Below, in pieces: positions 1,941 through 14,772 of a stretch of DNA of 64,000 nt. The notes below the pieces were generated by a model. It made no database searches, was not told the DNA's origin, and worked only from the letters and a program-made list of their open reading frames with translations. The DNA is from Hyalangium gracile. Its GTDB lineage: Bacteria; Myxococcota; Myxococcia; Myxococcales; Myxococcaceae. Numbering within the stretch: the first letter of the stretch is position 1; each line of letters starts with the position of its first letter. The stretch is taken from positions 186,001 to 250,000 of the forward strand of contig NZ_JAHXBG010000014.1 of NCBI RefSeq assembly GCF_020103725.1, written 5' to 3'. Both the position numbers and the translations under genes were made by a program.

Positions 1941-3311
1941 ATGTACGTCCTCCTGGCCCTCCTCGCCCTCGGCCTGCTGCTGGCCGTCCACGAGCTGGGG
2001 CACCTCCTGGCCGCGCGGCTGCTCGGCGTGAGCGTGCCCCGCTTCTCGCTGGGCTTCGGGCCGCCGCTGCTGTCCTTCCACCTGCTCGGCACGGAGTATG
2101 TCGTCGCCGCCATCCCCCTGGGTGCTTCGGCCACCCTCCATGGGATGAACCCCCACGCCCCGGGGTTGGATCCCGCCGATCCCCGCAGCTACTCGGCCCA
2201 GCGCCCCTGGAAGCGCGTCGTCATCACCCTCGCCGGCTCGCTGGCCAACTACCTGTTCGCCCTGGGCGTCCTCTTCGCGCTGTACACCTCCGGCACCCAC
2301 GTGGTGGTGCCACTCACGGTGGGCACGGTGACGCCGGGCTCGGAGGCGGCCCTCGCGCAGCTGCTCCCGGGGGACCGCATCCTCAGCGTGGACGGCCAGC
2401 CGGTGAAGAGCTGGTCGGACTTCGTGGAGAGCATCGGCCAGAGCCCCGGGCGCGAGCGCTCGCTCGTCGTCTCCCGCCATGGGGAGCCTCGCGTGGTGGC
2501 CGTGCGCCCCCGGCCCGATGAGCGCGGGGTGGGCCGCATCGGCGTGAGCCAGCAGTACGTCTACCGCGAGCACTCCCCCGGCGAGGCCCTGGCCCAGTCC
2601 CTGGTGCACACCCAGCGCGTGGCCGCCGAGGCCCTCACCCTCGTCTGGAGCCGGGTGGTGGGCCCCAGCCCCACCGCCGAGCCTCCCAGCTCCGTGGCCG
2701 TCGTGCGGCAGTCCTCCGGCGCGGCCTCCACCGGCTGGGACTCCTTCCTGCGCGTGCTGGTGGCCATCTCGGTGGCGCTCTCGCTGCTGCACCTGGTGCC
2801 CGTGCCAGGCCTGGACGGCGGGCGACTGGTGTTCCTCGCCATCGAGCTGGCCCGGAGACGGCCCGTGTCCCCGCGCGTGGAGACGCTGGCGAACACGGTG
2901 GGCTTCCTGGCCATCGCCGCCGCCATCCTCATCATCTCCGTCGCCGAGGTCCGCCGCGCCCTCCCCTCCTCGGAGCCGCGCGCCGCTCCAGGCCCTGGAG
3001 CCCCGGCGGGGCCTGCCCTCCTGGATGGTGGGGAGGCGTCCAGCCAGCCCCCCCTCCCCGACGCGGGGGTACAGGCGCCGGATGCGGGGGCCCAGACGCC
3101 GGATGCGGGGGGAACCTCCAGAGCCGGCCTGGTGTCAGACGCAGGGCGACCCACCCCAGCCCCGGTTCCGGATGCCGGGGTGGCGAGCGATGCGGGGCCA
3201 GCTCCGGATGGGGGACTCCCTCCCCTGGATGCTGGAGCACCGACCGGGCCGGGGAGCGCCCCCGACGCGGGCGGCCCCCTACTCGATGCGGGCGCTGCTG
3301 ACGCGGGTTGA
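1941..3311 (+). CDS. Site-2 protease (M50 family) with DAG-repeat C-terminal tail
   Basis: Intramembrane zinc metalloprotease of 456 residues. HELGH at 17-21 lies in the first transmembrane helix; a second helix is near 92-116; a single PDZ domain spans about 122-195 (GSEAALAQLLPGDRILSVDGQPV); the third ligand motif LDGGR is at 291-295; a last helix is at 316-335. This is the RseP/SpoIVFB core for cutting membrane-bound substrates. Unusually, residues 345-456 form a low-complexity Pro/Ala/Asp tail with ten DAG triplets, often PDAG. The enzyme is distinct from the larger RseP encoded at 13072-14697. It sits between the Nudix gene and a membrane protein gene 22 bases downstream, probably in one transcript. 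Its substrate is unknown. Confidence 0.88.
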   Translation: MYVLLALLALGLLLAVHELGHLLAARLLGVSVPRFSLGFGPPLLSFHLLGTEYVVAAIPLGASATLHGMNPHAPGLDPADPRSYSAQRPWKRVVITLAGSLANYLFALGVLFALYTSGTHVVVPLTVGTVTPGSEAALAQLLPGDRILSVDGQPVKSWSDFVESIGQSPGRERSLVVSRHGEPRVVAVRPRPDERGVGRIGVSQQYVYREHSPGEALAQSLVHTQRVAAEALTLVWSRVVGPSPTAEPPSSVAVVRQSSGAASTGWDSFLRVLVAISVALSLLHLVPVPGLDGGRLVFLAIELARRRPVSPRVETLANTVGFLAIAAAILIISVAEVRRALPSSEPRAAPGPGAPAGPALLDGGEASSQPPLPDAGVQAPDAGAQTPDAGGTSRAGLVSDAGRPTPAPVPDAGVASDAGPAPDGGLPPLDAGAPTGPGSAPDAGGPLLDAGAADAG

Positions 3312-4012: not shown

Positions 4013-4675
4013 CTACGGGCCCAGGCCGACCCAGATCTCGCCGTCCTCGAAGAACTCCTTCTTCCAGATCGGCACGTCCTGCTTGAGCCGCTCGATGGCG
4101 TGCTCGCAGGCCAGGAACGCCTCCTTGCGGTGGGGCGCCGCGGCGGCGATCACCACCGCCAGCTCTCCCGGCATCAGCGTCCCCACCCGGTGCATGATGG
4201 CCAGGCGCGTGCCGCTCCAGCGCTCGGCCACCTCCGCGCCGATGGCCGCCAGCCGCTTCTCCGCCATGGGGGGATAGGCCTCGTACTCGAGCTTCAGCAC
4301 CCGCCGGCCCTCCGTCTGGTTGCGCACCGAGCCCGAGAACGTCACCAGCCCGCCGTACGCCTCGCCCGACACCGCCGCCACCACGTCCTCCAGCCGCAGC
4401 GGCCGGTCCACCACCGAGAACAGCCCCGAGCCGCCCGACACCGGAGGAATGAGCGCCAGCTCCGCCCCGGCCGGCACCTCGGCCTCCACGTCCACGAACT
4501 CCTGGTTCACCGCCACGCGCAGGTGCGGCAGCAGCGGCCCCAGCGCCGGGTGGCGCTCGGCCACCTGCCGCAGCACCTCACGCACCCGCACGCCCTCGGG
4601 CACCTCCAGCGTCTCGCGCTGGGCTCCCGCGCGCTCGCGCGCCGCGGCGAAGTAGAGAACGGAGATCGAGCCCAT
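4013..4675 (-). CDS. Fused molybdopterin synthase MoaD-MoaE
   Basis: Molybdopterin synthase inserts two sulfurs into precursor Z in molybdenum-cofactor synthesis. Residues 1-82 are a MoaD ubiquitin-like domain (ISVLYFAAARERAG, ending PPVSGG at 77-82). Residues 85-220 are MoaE (SGSVRNQTEGRRVLKLEYEAY around 114-134, HRVG 162-165, PHRKEAF 181-187, and IWKKEFF 203-209 with the active-site lysine). Normally MoaD ends at the Gly-Gly, which must be free to be thiocarboxylated; here it is followed directly by SGLFSVV and the MoaE domain. Related fusions, such as mycobacterial MoaX, are known and are processed. The gene follows the PKD lipoprotein gene on the same strand with only three bases between. 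Confidence 0.93.
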   Translation of the reverse strand: MGSISVLYFAAARERAGAQRETLEVPEGVRVREVLRQVAERHPALGPLLPHLRVAVNQEFVDVEAEVPAGAELALIPPVSGGSGLFSVVDRPLRLEDVVAAVSGEAYGGLVTFSGSVRNQTEGRRVLKLEYEAYPPMAEKRLAAIGAEVAERWSGTRLAIMHRVGTLMPGELAVVIAAAAPHRKEAFLACEHAIERLKQDVPIWKKEFFEDGEIWVGLGP

Positions 4676-6477: not shown

Positions 6478-7203
6478 CTAGTAGTCCAAGGCCAGCCCGA
6501 ACATCCAGTGTCGGCTGGAGAGAACCAGCCCGGGACTGCCGAAGTTGTTCACTTCAGCGTAGGTCCACTCGGCGAAGAAGTAGCTGTGGTTGACGCCGAT
6601 GTCCGAGTCGAAGTCCCGGGCCAGGCGCGGCTCCAGCACGTCCAGCAGGAACGAGACGCCCGCCGTGAAGCCGTAGCCCCACCGGCCGCCCTTGCCCGAG
6701 CGGCCGCTCAGCTCCTGCGTCTCCCCGCCCTTCTCGATCCACCAGGGCATGTAGATGAGCCCCAGCTTGCCGTAGGGCACCAGCGGCACGCCCCAGCGGA
6801 AGGCCGCGTAGTCGAACTTGTAGAGGGCGTTGAGCTTGAGCGGCACCACCTTGAGCGCCGTCTTCTCCTCGGCCGGATCGCCGTCGTCGGTGAGGGTGTC
6901 GGCGTACTTCTCCGCGTAGCCCGCCGAGAAGCCCACGCCCGCCGTGCCGAAGCCCTGGTAGAAGTAGCGCTGCAGCTCCAGCTCGAAGAGCAGCAGCGAC
7001 GCGTCACCGAACGTGTCCTTGTAGGGCTCGCCGTCCAGGCCCTCCTCGGTGTCGATGCGCGGCTTGTAACCACCCAGCTTGAACTCCACCGCGCCCGTGC
7101 GGGGGGAACCCACGGGCGCGCGGGGCGCGTCGGAGACCTCCAGCGCCTGGCTCGGCAGCGCGCCCAGAAGCGCGATGACGCCGAGAGCCACTGCTCGACT
7201 CAT
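6478..7203 (-). CDS. Outer-membrane beta-barrel protein (MXAN_2562-like)
   Basis: Encodes 241 residues from the ATG at 7201-7203 (MSRAVALGVIALLGALPSQALE), a good signal peptide cut after an Ala. The mature part has alternating hydrophobic/aromatic strands (LLLFELELQRYFYQGF, FTAGVGFSAGYAEKYA, WGYGFTAGVSFLLDV) and ends in an aromatic-terminated strand, HWMFGLALDY, typical of the last barrel strand recognised by BamA. It resembles the family that NCBI names MXAN_2562 outer-membrane beta-barrel, from memory. Its start overlaps the stop of the upstream gene by 4 bases. That pair is therefore translationally coupled, and the products may interact at the cell surface. Function unknown. Confidence 0.85.
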   Translation of the reverse strand: MSRAVALGVIALLGALPSQALEVSDAPRAPVGSPRTGAVEFKLGGYKPRIDTEEGLDGEPYKDTFGDASLLLFELELQRYFYQGFGTAGVGFSAGYAEKYADTLTDDGDPAEEKTALKVVPLKLNALYKFDYAAFRWGVPLVPYGKLGLIYMPWWIEKGGETQELSGRSGKGGRWGYGFTAGVSFLLDVLEPRLARDFDSDIGVNHSYFFAEWTYAEVNNFGSPGLVLSSRHWMFGLALDY

Positions 7204-8078
7204 GACCGGTTTCTCCTTGAAGACAGCCAGAACCCCAGGGCGACCAGCACCCAACCACTCGCGAGACCTCCCGCCGCCGCGCCACACCCTCCCATCTCCT
7301 GCCCCTTGGCTTCCACATATCTGTCGAAGAAACCCAGGGTGTGGATCGGCGTGCCCTCCTGGGCCTCCGATGCCGCACTCTCGTTGTCCGCCGCATCCAC
7401 CGCCGTCGCGGTGAGGCGGTATGTCACACCGTTCTCCAGGTTCTCCACCTTGAACAGCGACTGATCCGAGGACTGGCGCAGATCCCGACCGCCGGAGCCG
7501 TCCGTCCGCTCGATGTGGAGCTTGAGCTCGCTGGTGTCATCCGGGACGGTGACGCGCACGGACAGGGCCCCGTCCAGCGGAGAGATCCGCTCGATGGAGG
7601 GAGCCTCCGGAGGCTGGGCATCGTACGTCACGTCCACGTCGTCCTTCTGGTAGTTCTTGGAGTTGGACGAGCAGTCGCCGCTCAGGCCACCCGCGATCGG
7701 GATGGAGGCGCACAGCTTGTACTCCACCTGCCGGCCCTCGGCGGGGCACTGCGTCTCTCCGCCCTTGAAGAGCGGGAGCTCCCCCACCTCGAAGGACACC
7801 GTGCCGGAGCGGTTGGTCAGCACCTGCTCCTTGGCCACGCTGTCCACCAGCGTCGTGCCACTGGGCGGCTCATCCGAGCAGGTCTCCGCGATCCAGAACT
7901 TCAGATCGTCACAGACGAGCGTGGTGATGCCGTGGGCCCAGTTGACCGTGCGAGTCAAATCGCAGGGCCCCTTGGGCACGCGCAGCTCGTCGTCGTTGTT
8001 GGGCAGGGACAGCTGCAACGCGGTCTGGCTCCAGGCCGTGGTTGCAGTCAGCGTGAGGGCTATCAGCAGGGAACGCAT
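7200..8078 (-). CDS. MYXO-CTERM-anchored surface protein (MXAN_2561-like)
   Basis: Encodes 292 residues from the ATG at 8076-8078 (MRSLLIALTLTATTAWS), a classical signal peptide. The upstream in-frame extension lacks one. The mature part contains paired cysteines (CDLTR, CDDLKFW, CSDEP, CPAEG, CASI, CSSN) and a fibronectin-III-like domain near the C-terminus (PPEAPSIERISPLDGALSVRV, NGVTYRLTATAVDAADNES). The C-terminus is a MYXO-CTERM-like sorting tail: GGCGAAAGG, a hydrophobic segment WVLVALGFWL, then RRNR. In myxobacteria such tails are processed and the protein is displayed on the outer surface. It is translationally coupled to the barrel gene downstream by a 4-base overlap. Confidence 0.85.
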   Translation of the reverse strand: MRSLLIALTLTATTAWSQTALQLSLPNNDDELRVPKGPCDLTRTVNWAHGITTLVCDDLKFWIAETCSDEPPSGTTLVDSVAKEQVLTNRSGTVSFEVGELPLFKGGETQCPAEGRQVEYKLCASIPIAGGLSGDCSSNSKNYQKDDVDVTYDAQPPEAPSIERISPLDGALSVRVTVPDDTSELKLHIERTDGSGGRDLRQSSDQSLFKVENLENGVTYRLTATAVDAADNESAASEAQEGTPIHTLGFFDRYVEAKGQEMGGCGAAAGGLASGWVLVALGFWLSSRRNRS

Positions 8079-8204
8079 GGACGGAGATGAACCTAGCAAG
8101 TGGGGGGCCAGCTGAAACGGGGGGTCGCGCCCTTCATTCCCAGAGGGAACGCCCCCGCCATTCCGCCAAATGGGCAAGCCCGGCCTGGGGCGTGTGCCAA
8201 ATTG

Positions 8205-9236
8205 TCAGGCGGGACGCTGGAGCAGCCGCAGCCCGGCCTCCACCAGGTTGAGCGCCCCGCCTCGGCCGGCGTTGTCCACCACGGCGAAGAGGGTGAGCCA
8301 CTCGGGTGCCTGGGGAAAGGTGCGCAACCTGCCGACGTGGACCGTTGGATCCCCCGCCACGAGCATGGGCATGGGGTAGACCTTCTCGCCGGGCGCATCC
8401 AGCACCTTGAGCGCGGGGGACGTCTTGAGCGCGGCGCGGGCCTGCTCCACGGGTGCGGGCACCTTGAGCTGCACGTGCAGGCTCAGCCCGTGGCCGTAGA
8501 AGGTGGGCACCTGCACGGCGGTGCCGGCGATGACGGGCGTCTCTCCCCGGGCGCCGAACAGCCGCGCCGCCTCGAGCGTCCAGCCCGCCTCCTCCTCCGT
8601 CCAAGGCGAGTTGGCCATGAAGGGGCCCACCTGCGGCACCAGGTTGAAGCCGACGCGCTGGGGGAAGGCATGGGCCTCGGGCTCTCGGCCGGAGAGCAGG
8701 CCGGCGGTCTGCTTCTCCAGCTCGTTCACCCCCGTCACGCCCGCCGAGGACACGCCCATCATCGCCGTCACCTGGACCCGGACGACGCCGCCAAATGCCT
8801 TCTGCAGCGGCGCGACGATGGAGACGAGGGCGCTGGACACCGCGGACGGCAGGCTGACGACGCGGCCCTTGAAGGTGGCGCCCAGCACCTCGGGGTTGAA
8901 GGTGGGCAGCACCAGGGGGACGTTGCCGTCCGCGCGGAAGGCGGAGCTGGCGTCCACCACCCAGGCGCCCGCGGCCTGGGCGATGGGCGCCAGCGTGCGG
9001 GACGCGCTCGCCGGGGTGGCCAGCAGCGCCAGGCCCACGCCTCGGAAAGCCTCAGGGGTGGCCTTCTCCACCTCCAGCGTGTCCTCGCCGTACTCCAGCT
9101 CGACGGCCTCGGAGCGCTCGGAGGCCAGGACGGTGAGCCGCTCGGAGGACACGCCCTGATCGAGCAGCGCGGAGAGCACCTCGCGACCCACCACTCCGGT
9201 GGCTCCCACCACGGCGATCCGTACGTTCTCGTTCAT
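8205..9236 (-). CDS. Aspartate-semialdehyde dehydrogenase homologue lacking the catalytic Cys (Usg-like)
   Basis: Encodes 343 residues with the Asd fold. The NADP-binding N-terminus is IAVVGATGVVGREVL at 7-21; the dimerisation/catalytic domain and a late GHGLSLHV follow. In active Asd the catalytic cysteine sits in NPNC, which aligns here with LPSA at 129-132, placing Ala132 at the cysteine position. The whole protein contains no cysteine at all, so the normal thioacyl chemistry on aspartyl phosphate is not possible. E. coli Usg is a known Asd-like paralogue of uncertain function and is the closest parallel I can name. A true Asd for lysine, threonine and methionine synthesis should exist elsewhere. 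It lies 42 bases downstream of the SRPBCC gene. Confidence 0.85.
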   Translation of the reverse strand: MNENVRIAVVGATGVVGREVLSALLDQGVSSERLTVLASERSEAVELEYGEDTLEVEKATPEAFRGVGLALLATPASASRTLAPIAQAAGAWVVDASSAFRADGNVPLVLPTFNPEVLGATFKGRVVSLPSAVSSALVSIVAPLQKAFGGVVRVQVTAMMGVSSAGVTGVNELEKQTAGLLSGREPEAHAFPQRVGFNLVPQVGPFMANSPWTEEEAGWTLEAARLFGARGETPVIAGTAVQVPTFYGHGLSLHVQLKVPAPVEQARAALKTSPALKVLDAPGEKVYPMPMLVAGDPTVHVGRLRTFPQAPEWLTLFAVVDNAGRGGALNLVEAGLRLLQRPA

Positions 9237-11830: not shown

Positions 11831-12565
11831 TCAGTCCTCTTTCAAGCGAGCCGTAGGCGCCGGCCCCGGCAGCGGAGGGAACTTCGGGTTGCGCTCGGGC
11901 TCGGAGGCCCGGACGTAGTGCGGCTCCAGCGCGAACACGGCCTCCAGCGGCTGCGTCTCAGGGAAGCGGGCCAGCCGCGCCAGCTCCACCGCCGACGGGA
12001 ACACCGGCCCGGTCAGCAGTCGCCCCGGAGCGACTCCCGCCGCCTCCAGCGCGGCGCGGTAGTCCGTCAGCGCGGGCCCCAGCGCGAGCGCCTCGGGCTC
12101 GGCGGCCAGCCTCGCCGCCACCTCCTCCGGGGACATCGCCGTCTCGGGCTCCAGCGCCTCCACGGTCCGCCCGCGCCGCCGGTACGCGCCCAGGTACAGG
12201 TCATCCTTGCGCGCCACCGCGAGGCAGAACAGCGGCGGGCCTTCGGGCCCCTCCAGCGCCACCGCCGCCAGCGAGGAGGCGCCCACCACCTTCAGCCGCG
12301 CCGCGTAGGCCAGCGCCTTCACCGTGGCCAGGCCAATGCGCAGGCCAGTGAAGGATCCGGGCCCCAGCCCCACCACCAGCCCCTCCAGCTGCGCCAGCTT
12401 CACGCCATGCCGCGCGAGCAGCTCGCCCACCACTCCGGGCAGCACCTCGCTCTGCTTCCGCGGCGGCCCCACCACCACGTGCTCCAGGGAGCGCACGTCC
12501 TCCCCCACCCCTTCGACCAGGGCCAGCGACAGCGTCAGCGTGGAGGTGTCGAGCGCGAGGAACAC
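11831..12565 (-). CDS. tsaB: tRNA threonylcarbamoyladenosine synthesis protein TsaB
   Basis: TsaB is the inactive partner of TsaD in making t6A at position 37 of ANN-decoding tRNAs. The 244-residue protein has the ASKHA-fold N-terminus (LALDTSTLTLSLAL), the conserved GLGPGSFTGLRIGLATVKALA at about 67-87, and GASSLAAVA. The length fits the family (about 230). It sits directly after rlpA with 9 bases between, at the tail of the uppS-cdsA-rseP operon. No tsaC, tsaD or tsaE is in the window. Confidence 0.93.
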   Translation of the reverse strand: MFLALDTSTLTLSLALVEGVGEDVRSLEHVVVGPPRKQSEVLPGVVGELLARHGVKLAQLEGLVVGLGPGSFTGLRIGLATVKALAYAARLKVVGASSLAAVALEGPEGPPLFCLAVARKDDLYLGAYRRRGRTVEALEPETAMSPEEVAARLAAEPEALALGPALTDYRAALEAAGVAPGRLLTGPVFPSAVELARLARFPETQPLEAVFALEPHYVRASEPERNPKFPPLPGPAPTARLKED

Positions 12566-12574
12566 GGCACTCCT

Positions 12575-13075
12575 CTACCCCGGGAGCGCCTCGAGAGGGA
12601 CGGAAAAGGACGTCACCGGCTTCGCGTCCTGGCACCGGTACAGCCGCACCCGCGCCAGCCCCTTCGAGACCATGTCCAGCTTGCGCGCGGCGCCCAGCGA
12701 CACGTCGATGATGCGCTCGGCCTTGAAGGGGCCCCGATCGTTGATGCGCACCTCCACGGACTTGCCGTTCTCCATGTTCACCACCCGCACGCAGGCGCCG
12801 AAGCGCATCGTACGGTGGGCCGCCGTCATCGCGTTCTGGTCGAAGCGCTCGCCGCTCGCCGTCGGCCGGCCGTGCAGGCCCGGGCCGTAGTACGAGGCCA
12901 GGCCCTCGCCCAGATAGGCACGCGAGCCCTTCTCCGGCGTGTCGCCAGACTCCTCGGAGCCAGCCCTCCCCTCGGAGCTCTCGGGCCGATCGGGCCGGGC
13001 CGCGCGCGAGGCGCAGCCCGTCAGCAGCCCCATCCCCAGCACCACCACGAGCAGCCGCGTCAACGTTCCGCTCAC
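12575..13075 (-). CDS. rlpA: RlpA-family septal ring lytic transglycosylase lipoprotein
   Basis: A 166-residue lipoprotein with lipobox LLTGC (Cys21), a short Ser/Glu-rich linker, and a double-psi beta-barrel: GLASYYGPGLHGRPTASGERFDQNAMTAAHRTM, RINDRGPFKAERIIDVSLGAARKLDM. The catalytic-region Asp of RlpA-type barrels is present in INDRGPF. RlpA cleaves naked glycan strands at the septum in some bacteria; no SPOR domain follows here, so binding to denuded glycans by SPOR is absent and a minimal RlpA is indicated. The start overlaps the rseP stop by 4 bases, so translation is probably coupled. Confidence 0.88.
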   Translation of the reverse strand: MSGTLTRLLVVVLGMGLLTGCASRAARPDRPESSEGRAGSEESGDTPEKGSRAYLGEGLASYYGPGLHGRPTASGERFDQNAMTAAHRTMRFGACVRVVNMENGKSVEVRINDRGPFKAERIIDVSLGAARKLDMVSKGLARVRLYRCQDAKPVTSFSVPLEALPG

Positions 13076-14697
13076 CGGGTGATGTCGTTGAAGAACGCCA
13101 CCAGCATCAGCAGCACCAGCATCGCCAGGCCGATGACGTTGGCGACCTCCCGGACACGCACCGGGATGGGACGGCGCCGGATGCTCTCCCAGCCCGCGGC
13201 CACCAGGTGGAAGCCGTCCAGGATGGGGATGGGCAGCAGGTTCACCACGCCCAGGTTGATGGAGATGACCGCCATCAGGTTGAGGAAGTAGTCCCAGCCC
13301 AGCTCCGAGCTGCGCGCCGCCATCTGGTACATCATGATGGGCCCGCCCACGGAGCTCAGCGGCACGTCATTCGTCATCAGCCCGGCGATGGCCGCCACCG
13401 TGCTGGTGATGATCTTCGGCACCACCTTCGCGGCCTGCTTCAGCGCCTCGTTCCACTCCAGCGTCACCGTCACCCGCTCCGCCGGAGGCACCTCGCCCCG
13501 GGTGAGGTACCAGGGCCGGACTCCCAGCCCGATCGTCTCGGTGACGTTGCCCATCTCATCCGTCTGCTTGATGGGCGCCTGGGCGAGCTTCTCCTTGTGC
13601 TCGCCATCCTGGCTGCGCCACACCAGCTCGAAGGGCTCCTTGCCCCGCCCGCTCAGCTTCACCTCGAGCGTGTGGAAGGTGGTGAGCGGCTCGCCGTTGA
13701 ACGACACGAGGCGATCGCCGGACTTCAGCCCCGCCGCCGCGGCCGCCGTCCCCGGCAGCACCGTGGCCACGTAGAGATCCCTCGGCTCCACGCCCAGCGC
13801 CGCCAGGCCCTCCTTGCCCTGCTGCTCCTCCAGCTGGAGCTTCACCAGCTCCGGCACCTGCATCGTCACCGCGCCCGCCTGCACCGGCCGCAGGCGCTGC
13901 ACCGCCACCTCCAGCTTGCCGTCATGCCTGGCCAGCGCCTGGTACAGCGTGGCCTCGTCCGGCACCGGCGTGCCGTTGATGGACAGGATGCGGTCGAACG
14001 TCTTCAGCCCCGCCTGCTCCGCCACCGAGCCGGGCGGCACGCCCACGATCGGCACCGGCGAGTTCGCCTCCACCATCATCCGCCCCCGCTCCACCGTGTC
14101 GAACGGCGTGGAGTCCACGTACTTGAGCGGCGTCACGTTGGTGATGAACTGCTGGCCGTCGCGCTCGACGGTGAGCGGAACGGGGCGCTCGAAGCGGCCC
14201 ACGAACGCGTCCGCCATCTCCTCGAAGGTGCGGACCTTGTCCCCGTCCACCGCGACGATCCGGTCCCCCGGACGCAGCCCCGCCGCCGCCGCGGGCGTGC
14301 CCTGGGGCACGTAGCCCAGCCGCGTCGAGATGGCCTCGTGCGGCCCCCAGAAGACGAAGAAGTAGATCAGGACGGGGAACGCCAGATTGAACGCCGGACC
14401 GGCGAGCACGATCAACATGCGCTTCCACGGCGGCTGCGCCAGAAAGCCCCGATGCGCCTCGTGCGGATCCAATTCCTCGCCGGGCACATCCCCCGCCATC
14501 TTCACGAAGCCGCCCAGCGGAAGCAGCGCGATCTGGTACTCCGTCTCGCCCTTGGTGAAGCCCAGCAGCTTGGGCCCGAACCCGAAGGAGAACTTGAGCA
14601 CCTTCACCCCGCAGGCCTTCGCCACGAGGAAGTGCCCCAGCTCGTGCACCGTCACCAGCACCCCGAGCAGGAGCGCGAAGAACCCGATACTCGCCAT
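13072..14697 (-). CDS. rseP: RIP metalloprotease RseP, three-PDZ form
   Basis: Intramembrane site-2 protease of 541 residues, starting at MASIGFFALLLGVLVTVHELGH with the zinc motif HELGH at 18-22. FGFGPKLLGF and the ERMLIVLAGPAFN-like KRMLIVLAGPAFNLAFPVLIYFFVFW helix follow. Three PDZ-like domains are visible (GYVPQGTPAAAAGLRPGDRIVAVDGD; GVPPGSVAEQAGLKTFDRILSING; ATVLPGTAAAAAGLKSGDRLVSFNGE), against two in E. coli RseP (about 450 residues). The C-terminal LLPIPILDGFHL supplies the third zinc ligand. The role is anti-sigma-factor or membrane-protein cleavage in envelope stress. It lies between cdsA and rlpA, as in many proteobacterial envelope operons. Confidence 0.94.
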   Translation of the reverse strand: MASIGFFALLLGVLVTVHELGHFLVAKACGVKVLKFSFGFGPKLLGFTKGETEYQIALLPLGGFVKMAGDVPGEELDPHEAHRGFLAQPPWKRMLIVLAGPAFNLAFPVLIYFFVFWGPHEAISTRLGYVPQGTPAAAAGLRPGDRIVAVDGDKVRTFEEMADAFVGRFERPVPLTVERDGQQFITNVTPLKYVDSTPFDTVERGRMMVEANSPVPIVGVPPGSVAEQAGLKTFDRILSINGTPVPDEATLYQALARHDGKLEVAVQRLRPVQAGAVTMQVPELVKLQLEEQQGKEGLAALGVEPRDLYVATVLPGTAAAAAGLKSGDRLVSFNGEPLTTFHTLEVKLSGRGKEPFELVWRSQDGEHKEKLAQAPIKQTDEMGNVTETIGLGVRPWYLTRGEVPPAERVTVTLEWNEALKQAAKVVPKIITSTVAAIAGLMTNDVPLSSVGGPIMMYQMAARSSELGWDYFLNLMAVISINLGVVNLLPIPILDGFHLVAAGWESIRRRPIPVRVREVANVIGLAMLVLLMLVAFFNDITR

Positions 14698-14772
14698 GGC
14701 GGCAAGACTAATCGCGCTCTGGTCCAGGGACAACGCACATCCGTCCACACTGCTCGGCCGAGCACACAGCCG

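Follow-up and report, generated by a model that had tools for sequence, protein, structure and literature searches.

Pseudoenzymes have in many cases arisen as duplicates of an active enzyme. In active aspartate-semialdehyde dehydrogenases (Asds) the SAGG loop presumably forms the nicotinamide side of the site, and we take the Lys at position 218 to have a role in phosphate binding. The bacterial type of Asd (asd_B; TIGR01296 and NF011456) is represented by V. cholerae Asd II (PDB 2qz9, 2r00). According to PMC9385607, Cys134/135 of V. cholerae Asd begins catalysis, His274 and Gln161 touch a bound inhibitor, Arg267 holds the carboxylate and Arg101 the phosphate, and Glu240 is among the active-site residues with a given role. 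These roles are carried over below by motif, not by direct alignment with that protein. The archaeal/fungal type (asd_EA, TIGR00978) is a distant homologue of the same superfamily. Usg, a Cys-less relative known from E. coli, is the subject of PMC6358828.

The gene described here, P0002, lies in a 64,000-nucleotide stretch of the Hyalangium gracile genome, hereafter the window (Table 1); genomes, loci and families of the comparison carry the prefixes G, L and f, with f1 as the core family. P0002 starts with ATG, and its 343 translated residues include no Cys. Pfam detects both Asd domains, PF01118 (Semialdhyde_dh) and PF02774 (Semialdhyde_dhC), and the two-domain semialdehyde dehydrogenase fold is present in an AlphaFold2 model (input of 44 Asd sequences from other bacteria; mean pLDDT 93.9, pTM 0.90) that matches Asd structures over its own full length. 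The top Foldseek match of the model is V. cholerae Asd II (2qz9_A, TM 0.91, 32% identity); VIA-align places an S. pneumoniae Asd with NADP first (2gz3_B, rmsd 1.6 over 334 residues, Z 45.4), with 2hjs, the USG-1 homologue of P. aeruginosa, behind it (Z 41.7). Among NCBIfam models, P0002 passes NF011456 with 243.3 bits against a cut-off of 223 and falls short of both TIGR01296 (218 bits, cut-off 324.2) and TIGR00978 (75.6, cut-off 301.2).

Table 1. Features of the window around the Cys-less Asd homologue.
Feature	Coordinates	Strand	Evidence
Cys-less Asd homologue P0002 (probable displaced native Asd, pseudo-Asd), 343 aa	8205..9236	-	Translation, Pfam, NCBIfam, active-site map
Codon 132 (Ala), catalytic-Cys column	8841..8843	-	Alignments; place counted from ORF start at 9236
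tsaB-like gene, ancestral neighbour of asd	11831..12565	-	PF00814
M50 (RseP-type) protease with PDZ domains, ancestral neighbour	13072..14748	-	PF02163, 235.7 bits
MXAN_2561 family MXYO-CTERM-anchored protein, next downstream	7200..8177	-	NF045522, 322.7 bits
MXAN_2562 family outer-membrane beta-barrel protein, ancestral downstream neighbour	6478..7287	-	NF040596, 275.5 bits
SRPBCC-type protein between tsaB and P0002	9279..10721	-	PF10604, PF08327 over part of the protein
M23 + YkuD (L,D-transpeptidase) protein, 331 aa, between tsaB and P0002	10784..11779	-	PF01551, PF03734

The catalytic (N)PNC motif of Asds is replaced by LPSA in P0002, with Ser for Asn131 and Ala for Cys132; together with the Pfam domains and the predicted fold, this bears out the original prediction of an Asd homologue whose catalytic Cys has become Ala. 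The alignment reveals the active-site changes C132A, Q160M, K218G and R242Q, and the retention of Arg101, Glu215 and His249. Cys132, Gln160, Lys218, Arg242 and His249 each occur in 80 of 80 Asds of other bacteria among the matches listed, as does Arg101; of the first five, P0002 has only His249. Since Ala132 stands in the catalytic-Cys column of the alignments with real Asds, the thioester intermediate cannot form, as had been proposed. The loss is genuine, for Cys at 132 is absent from all 33 core rows (the window's own included) and from 75 of the 113 genomes read across the phylum, so that a sequencing error at the active site is excluded. The complete lack of Cys, also claimed in the original prediction, was confirmed by translation but is unremarkable: 8 of the 31 window genes, as predicted by a crude GC3 rule, are equally free of Cys, and the chance of finding none at this length is about 0.12. 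It was dropped as a key feature, as complete absence of Cys is limited to 8 of the 33 core rows and 18 carry one at position 128, away from the catalytic position.

The dinucleotide motif GxxGxxG is present as GATGVVG, and its glycines are retained in the core rows. The SAGG loop of active enzymes reads ATPA in P0002, so dinucleotide binding is likely for the adenosine half only; Gly164, Arg324 and Lys325 are also changed in the Cys-less protein. Binding of NADP(H) is, as far as motifs can tell, partly supported. Among 117 Cys-containing relatives, 68 positions are conserved at 95% or more; the core family keeps 42 of them, the dinucleotide motif included, has a different residue at 90% or more in 12, and is variable at 14. 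Met160, Gln242, Trp212 and Trp219 are themselves fixed in the core family, 33 positions fixed in its members occur at less than 5% in Cys-containing relatives, and His249 is retained in 50 of the 75 Cys-less proteins, all of which would suit a different Rossmann-fold enzyme or binding protein that handles another small molecule through His249 and the rebuilt pocket, with no thioester step. We regard such a new function as unlikely, because the pocket drifts over the 75 Cys-less proteins, with 12 different letters at position 160 and 10 at 249, which ill suits one common new activity. Persisting Asd activity by another chemistry could draw on the predicted fold, on Arg101 and His249 and on the NF011456 score; it is very improbable, given the joint loss of Cys, Gln, Lys and Arg and the finding of another Asd in 74 of the 75 Cys-less genomes. 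Separately, Gln has replaced Arg242 repeatedly, in E. coli Usg, in an extra copy in G044 and in the core f1 family, and Arg242 is retained in 95% of the Cys-less f5 proteins; the recurrence hints that dead Asds converge on a common ligand or partner.

Four PF01118 genes are present in the genome: L001 and L004, both of which pass the argC model, the Cys-less P0002, and L003 (G000:C11:331019-332080). L003 is the second, Cys-containing asd that the original prediction had suggested looking for; it carries an IPNCTTT motif and scores 351.4 against the TIGR00978 cut-off of 301.2, and is probably the working Asd of this genome. A tree of 32 asd_EA proteins, all from within the phylum, splits them into two types parted by a branch of 3.29; every one of the 32 has the catalytic Cys and Gln. 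Type 1 has an IPNCTTT-like motif (16 rows from f1, f4, f6, f8, f9, f12 and f17) and type 2 the motif KPNCS[IL]Q (16 rows from f5, f27 and two of f1). At L004, the second gene passing the argC model overlaps the end of a 353-aa gene by 4 bases (889-1959 and 1956-3017, minus strand), so that the two may be translationally coupled.

Matches to P0002 occur in 185 of 195 genomes of the phylum, and 123 of the 195 hold asd_EA over the cut-off. The native-type gene was read in 113 of the 185 matching genomes, the 72 left out being mostly close relatives of the window's genome, and Cys at 132 is present in 38 of the 113. The distribution of the two Asds is complementary, in counts that follow the tree and do not represent independent events: 72 of the 75 Cys-less genomes have asd_EA (71 over the cut-off and G093 with a partial match), and 36 of the 38 Cys-keeping genomes are without it, G075 and G076 having both genes. 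Rows L057 and L089 among the 75 are partial, and the asd_EA of G102 is cut by a contig end. Wherever asd_EA was read in the Cys-less genomes, its Cys motif is present (43 of 43 genes). By family, the rows read keep Cys in f2, f3, f7 and f10, lack it in f1, f4, f6, f8 and f9, and keep it in 2 of 22 in f5.

The other three Cys-less genomes differ from one another. In G014 a gamma-type Asd is encoded at L177 941-2065 (minus strand; G014:C12; TIGR01745 591.6 against 402.9), no asd_EA was found, and the Cys-less gene is still kept. G044 has a second, Cys-containing copy (TIGR01296 360.4 against 324.2), and no other Asd was found in G083, which is 79% complete. The G044 pair (L098, L183) belongs to another class, where a Cys-containing asd is accompanied by an extra Cys-less copy with CPDG and with Gln at 242; in the tree this copy is an independent dead Asd. 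No asd_EA was found in G158, a Cys-less genome outside the 113 that is 85% complete, and G112, which gave no asd_EA match, was left out of the counts. Six genomes of other classes (G048, G053-G056, G188) have asd_EA with a weak (E 1e-6 to 1e-12) or no native-type match, and there the old gene seems to be gone. Within six families, 122 of 127 genomes have a strong match to P0002 (E < 1e-20), most of them not read for Cys beyond the 113 genomes; G015, G035, G157, G077 and G082 gave no strong match. The dead copy is usually retained whichever substitute works, be it one of the two distant asd_EA types or one gamma-type enzyme.

The window proteins were used as queries against 41 loci, and the Cys-less and Cys-containing genes were found to share a chromosomal locus. 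All 16 f1 loci have a tsaB gene near the Cys-less gene, and L058, L059, L070, L071 and L074 have one near a Cys-containing asd. The M50 protease gene has the same order with asd in f1, f5, f6 and f7 loci, and MXAN_2562 lies downstream of Cys-less and Cys-containing genes alike. A Cys-containing asd has the full block M50 / tsaB / asd / MXAN_2562 around it in L070 and L071 (f7), and L058 and L059 (f5) show the same order around a Cys-containing asd. L073 (f7) lacks only the tsaB match, L072 (f7) has the downstream genes only, and L074 (f10) has a weak tsaB match and MXAN_2562 beside a Cys-containing asd. All 10 f5 loci have MXAN_2562 near the native-type gene, and 8 have tsaB there; the 10 include the loci of the Cys-keeping G075 and G076. 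This conserved block indicates that the Cys-less gene occupies the locus at which f7, f10 and some of f5 have a working asd. For f2 and f3, a block member was found in just one of five loci, two of which lie on short contigs. The MXAN_2561 family gene is confined to f1 among the 41 loci (13 of 16), and the SRPBCC-type and M23 + YkuD genes have no match in any of them.

In the f5 genomes G026, G074, G075, G076, G080 and G081, the native gene is directly preceded by asd_EA on its own strand, the frames overlapping by 1 base in G026 and abutting in G080. Of the 21 f5 genomes that carry both genes, at least 6 show such adjacency, a lower bound because several genomes are in many contigs; it may merely mark the place where asd_EA landed. 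At L059 (1719-4517, minus strand; G076), the native-type asd frame continues to 931 aa into a region matching MXAN_2562, possibly a fusion or an assembly fault. Elsewhere in the window, a 220-aa protein at 4013-4675 (minus strand) has ThiS-family and MoaE domains and is perhaps a fused molybdopterin synthase. Two M50 (RseP-type) proteases are encoded within 15 kb, one at 1941-3311 (plus strand) and the other the tsaB-side gene of Table 1, which has three PDZ stretches.

Descent was examined in a quick tree of 100 of 195 rows, with L059 trimmed to 345 aa since its frame runs on; the rows left out are the fragment L089, L128-L131 of f7, 28 of 49 f1 rows and 62 of 80 outside Asds. The 45 Cys-less rows form one clade with G075 and G076 (47 rows, SH-aLRT 100), nested in an Asd clade of their own class (60 rows, SH-aLRT 97), and the two Cys-keeping proteins stand at the base of the Cys-less clade. 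Cys state changes three times on the tree: in Usg, in the extra G044 copy and in the Cys-less clade. Neither alternative topology is rejected by the AU test, whether the 45 Cys-less rows are held with E. coli Usg (p 0.308) or the 15 Cys-containing rows of the class are held together apart from the Cys-less rows (p 0.078). The case for descent accordingly rests on locus and distribution together rather than on the tree alone, which by itself leaves a link to Usg standing.

Relatives in f5 carry intermediate states. The native gene of G075 and G076, with asd_EA directly upstream, keeps Cys, Gln, Arg and His and has lost Lys218; with both genes side by side, these genomes were apparently caught midway. 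Some other f5 proteins have lost Cys and retain Gln. Judged from sequence, this looks like a graded loss of residues once a second Asd was present. Living relatives may even preserve a whole series of stages, from the native Asd alone, through both genes side by side, loss of Cys with Gln kept, and a rebuilt pocket, to disappearance of the native gene, although we put this forward only tentatively.

The Cys-less gene is under purifying selection. None of the 33 core genes has an internal stop, and 140 of the 343 positions do not vary; dN/dS between pairs ranges from 0.05 to 0.59 with a median of 0.34 (526 of 528 pairs used). Over 22 of these genomes, the median is 0.34 for the Cys-less gene and 0.18 for asd_EA (199 of 231 pairs); these are simple Nei-Gojobori counts, rough in GC-rich DNA, and both lie well under 1. 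A ratio about twice that of asd_EA points to weaker constraint on the Cys-less gene, and, along with the five genomes of 127 without a strong match and the six asd_EA genomes in which the native type is weak or absent, it could be read as the decay of a pseudogene without function. That reading is quite improbable, as every pair used stays below 0.6, all core frames are intact and the gene gives a strong match in nearly all genomes of the six families. A dead copy that stays in its old place and is protected by selection probably has another role.

Taken together, these results make it very probable that P0002 is a displaced native Asd that no longer has Asd activity. P0002 would be the lineage's native bacterial-type Asd gene, which has not left its ancestral position next to tsaB and the gene for the M50 protease, and the catalytic duty would have passed to the distantly related asd_EA, of two far-apart types, and in one genome to a gamma-type Asd. 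We infer that the substitutes arrived after the native gene and that, with a substitute in place, the native protein could lose Cys, Gln and Lys and, in the core family, also the carboxylate-binding Arg. The displaced protein would have retained its fold, its dinucleotide-binding motif and a reshaped pocket. Less certain is that it survives as a pseudoenzyme which forms a dimer, binds a dinucleotide and tunes or scaffolds a partner protein. We favour, by a little over even odds, the full reading in which the native Asd was displaced and kept as a likely dinucleotide-binding pseudoenzyme, with regulation or scaffolding as its most likely task; the regulatory part taken alone falls somewhat short of an even chance. 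P0002 may have an NADP-sensing or regulatory role, as originally suggested. The first candidate partner would be the acting Asd or another step of the aspartate pathway; the pathway deserves attention first, since the Cys-less gene may be co-transcribed with asd_EA in some relatives. That other Asd types repeatedly took the place of an essential metabolic enzyme, its dead body becoming a conserved regulator that works with the Asd in charge, is conceivable but rather doubtful.

In this case the original gene, in its original place, appears to encode the dead protein, with the probable working enzyme, of another type, encoded elsewhere. Because the change may be readable in stages across living relatives, why a displaced enzyme is kept can be asked directly. 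P0002 passes NF011456 and is therefore likely to be annotated as Asd, by which metabolic models of these bacteria would be misled. The titles and abstract openings listed from an open literature collection contain no description of the Cys-less protein or of the displacement.

Compared with bacterial-type Asd, P0002 has the whole fold, the GATGxVG motif, Arg101 and His249 in common, and differs in the catalytic Cys, Gln, Lys and carboxylate-binding Arg, all four of which are replaced; the bacterial-type, Cys-containing asd of some related families has the same chromosomal neighbours. The asd_EA enzymes retain the PNC motif and Gln, both of which P0002 lacks. E. coli Usg resembles P0002 in what has been lost: the Asd fold is without the catalytic Cys (Ser132), Gln160 is replaced (by Ile), and Gln242 and His249 are present, so that alignment with Usg confirmed the same kind of residue losses. 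Usg and P0002 likewise both pass NF011456 and fail TIGR01296, and the USG-1 homologue 2hjs is among the structural matches. Orthology of P0002 with gammaproteobacterial Usg, as an ancient Cys-less paralogue beside Asd, would account for this shared pattern and for the non-significant AU test on joining the two, and by analogy P0002 may work like Usg. Yet E. coli Usg passes the Usg models NF005957 (683.5) and NF004224 (289.3), whereas P0002 stays below both cut-offs (161.1 against 273 and 179.4 against 284). The genomic contexts differ as well, pdxB-usg-truA in E. coli having no counterpart in a Pfam scan of the 18 ORFs neighbouring P0002, where no TruA domain was found, and P0002 sits at the native asd locus. 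In the best tree, which has one Usg row, E. coli Usg (branch 1.04) joins a Vibrio Asd (support 92), and P0002 falls inside the Asd clade of its own phylum. Orthology with Usg is for these reasons improbable, and the original prediction of a Usg-like paralogue finds partial support at most: the Usg label is not supported for P0002, which was likely displaced as an enzyme and has stayed at its locus as a pseudoenzyme.
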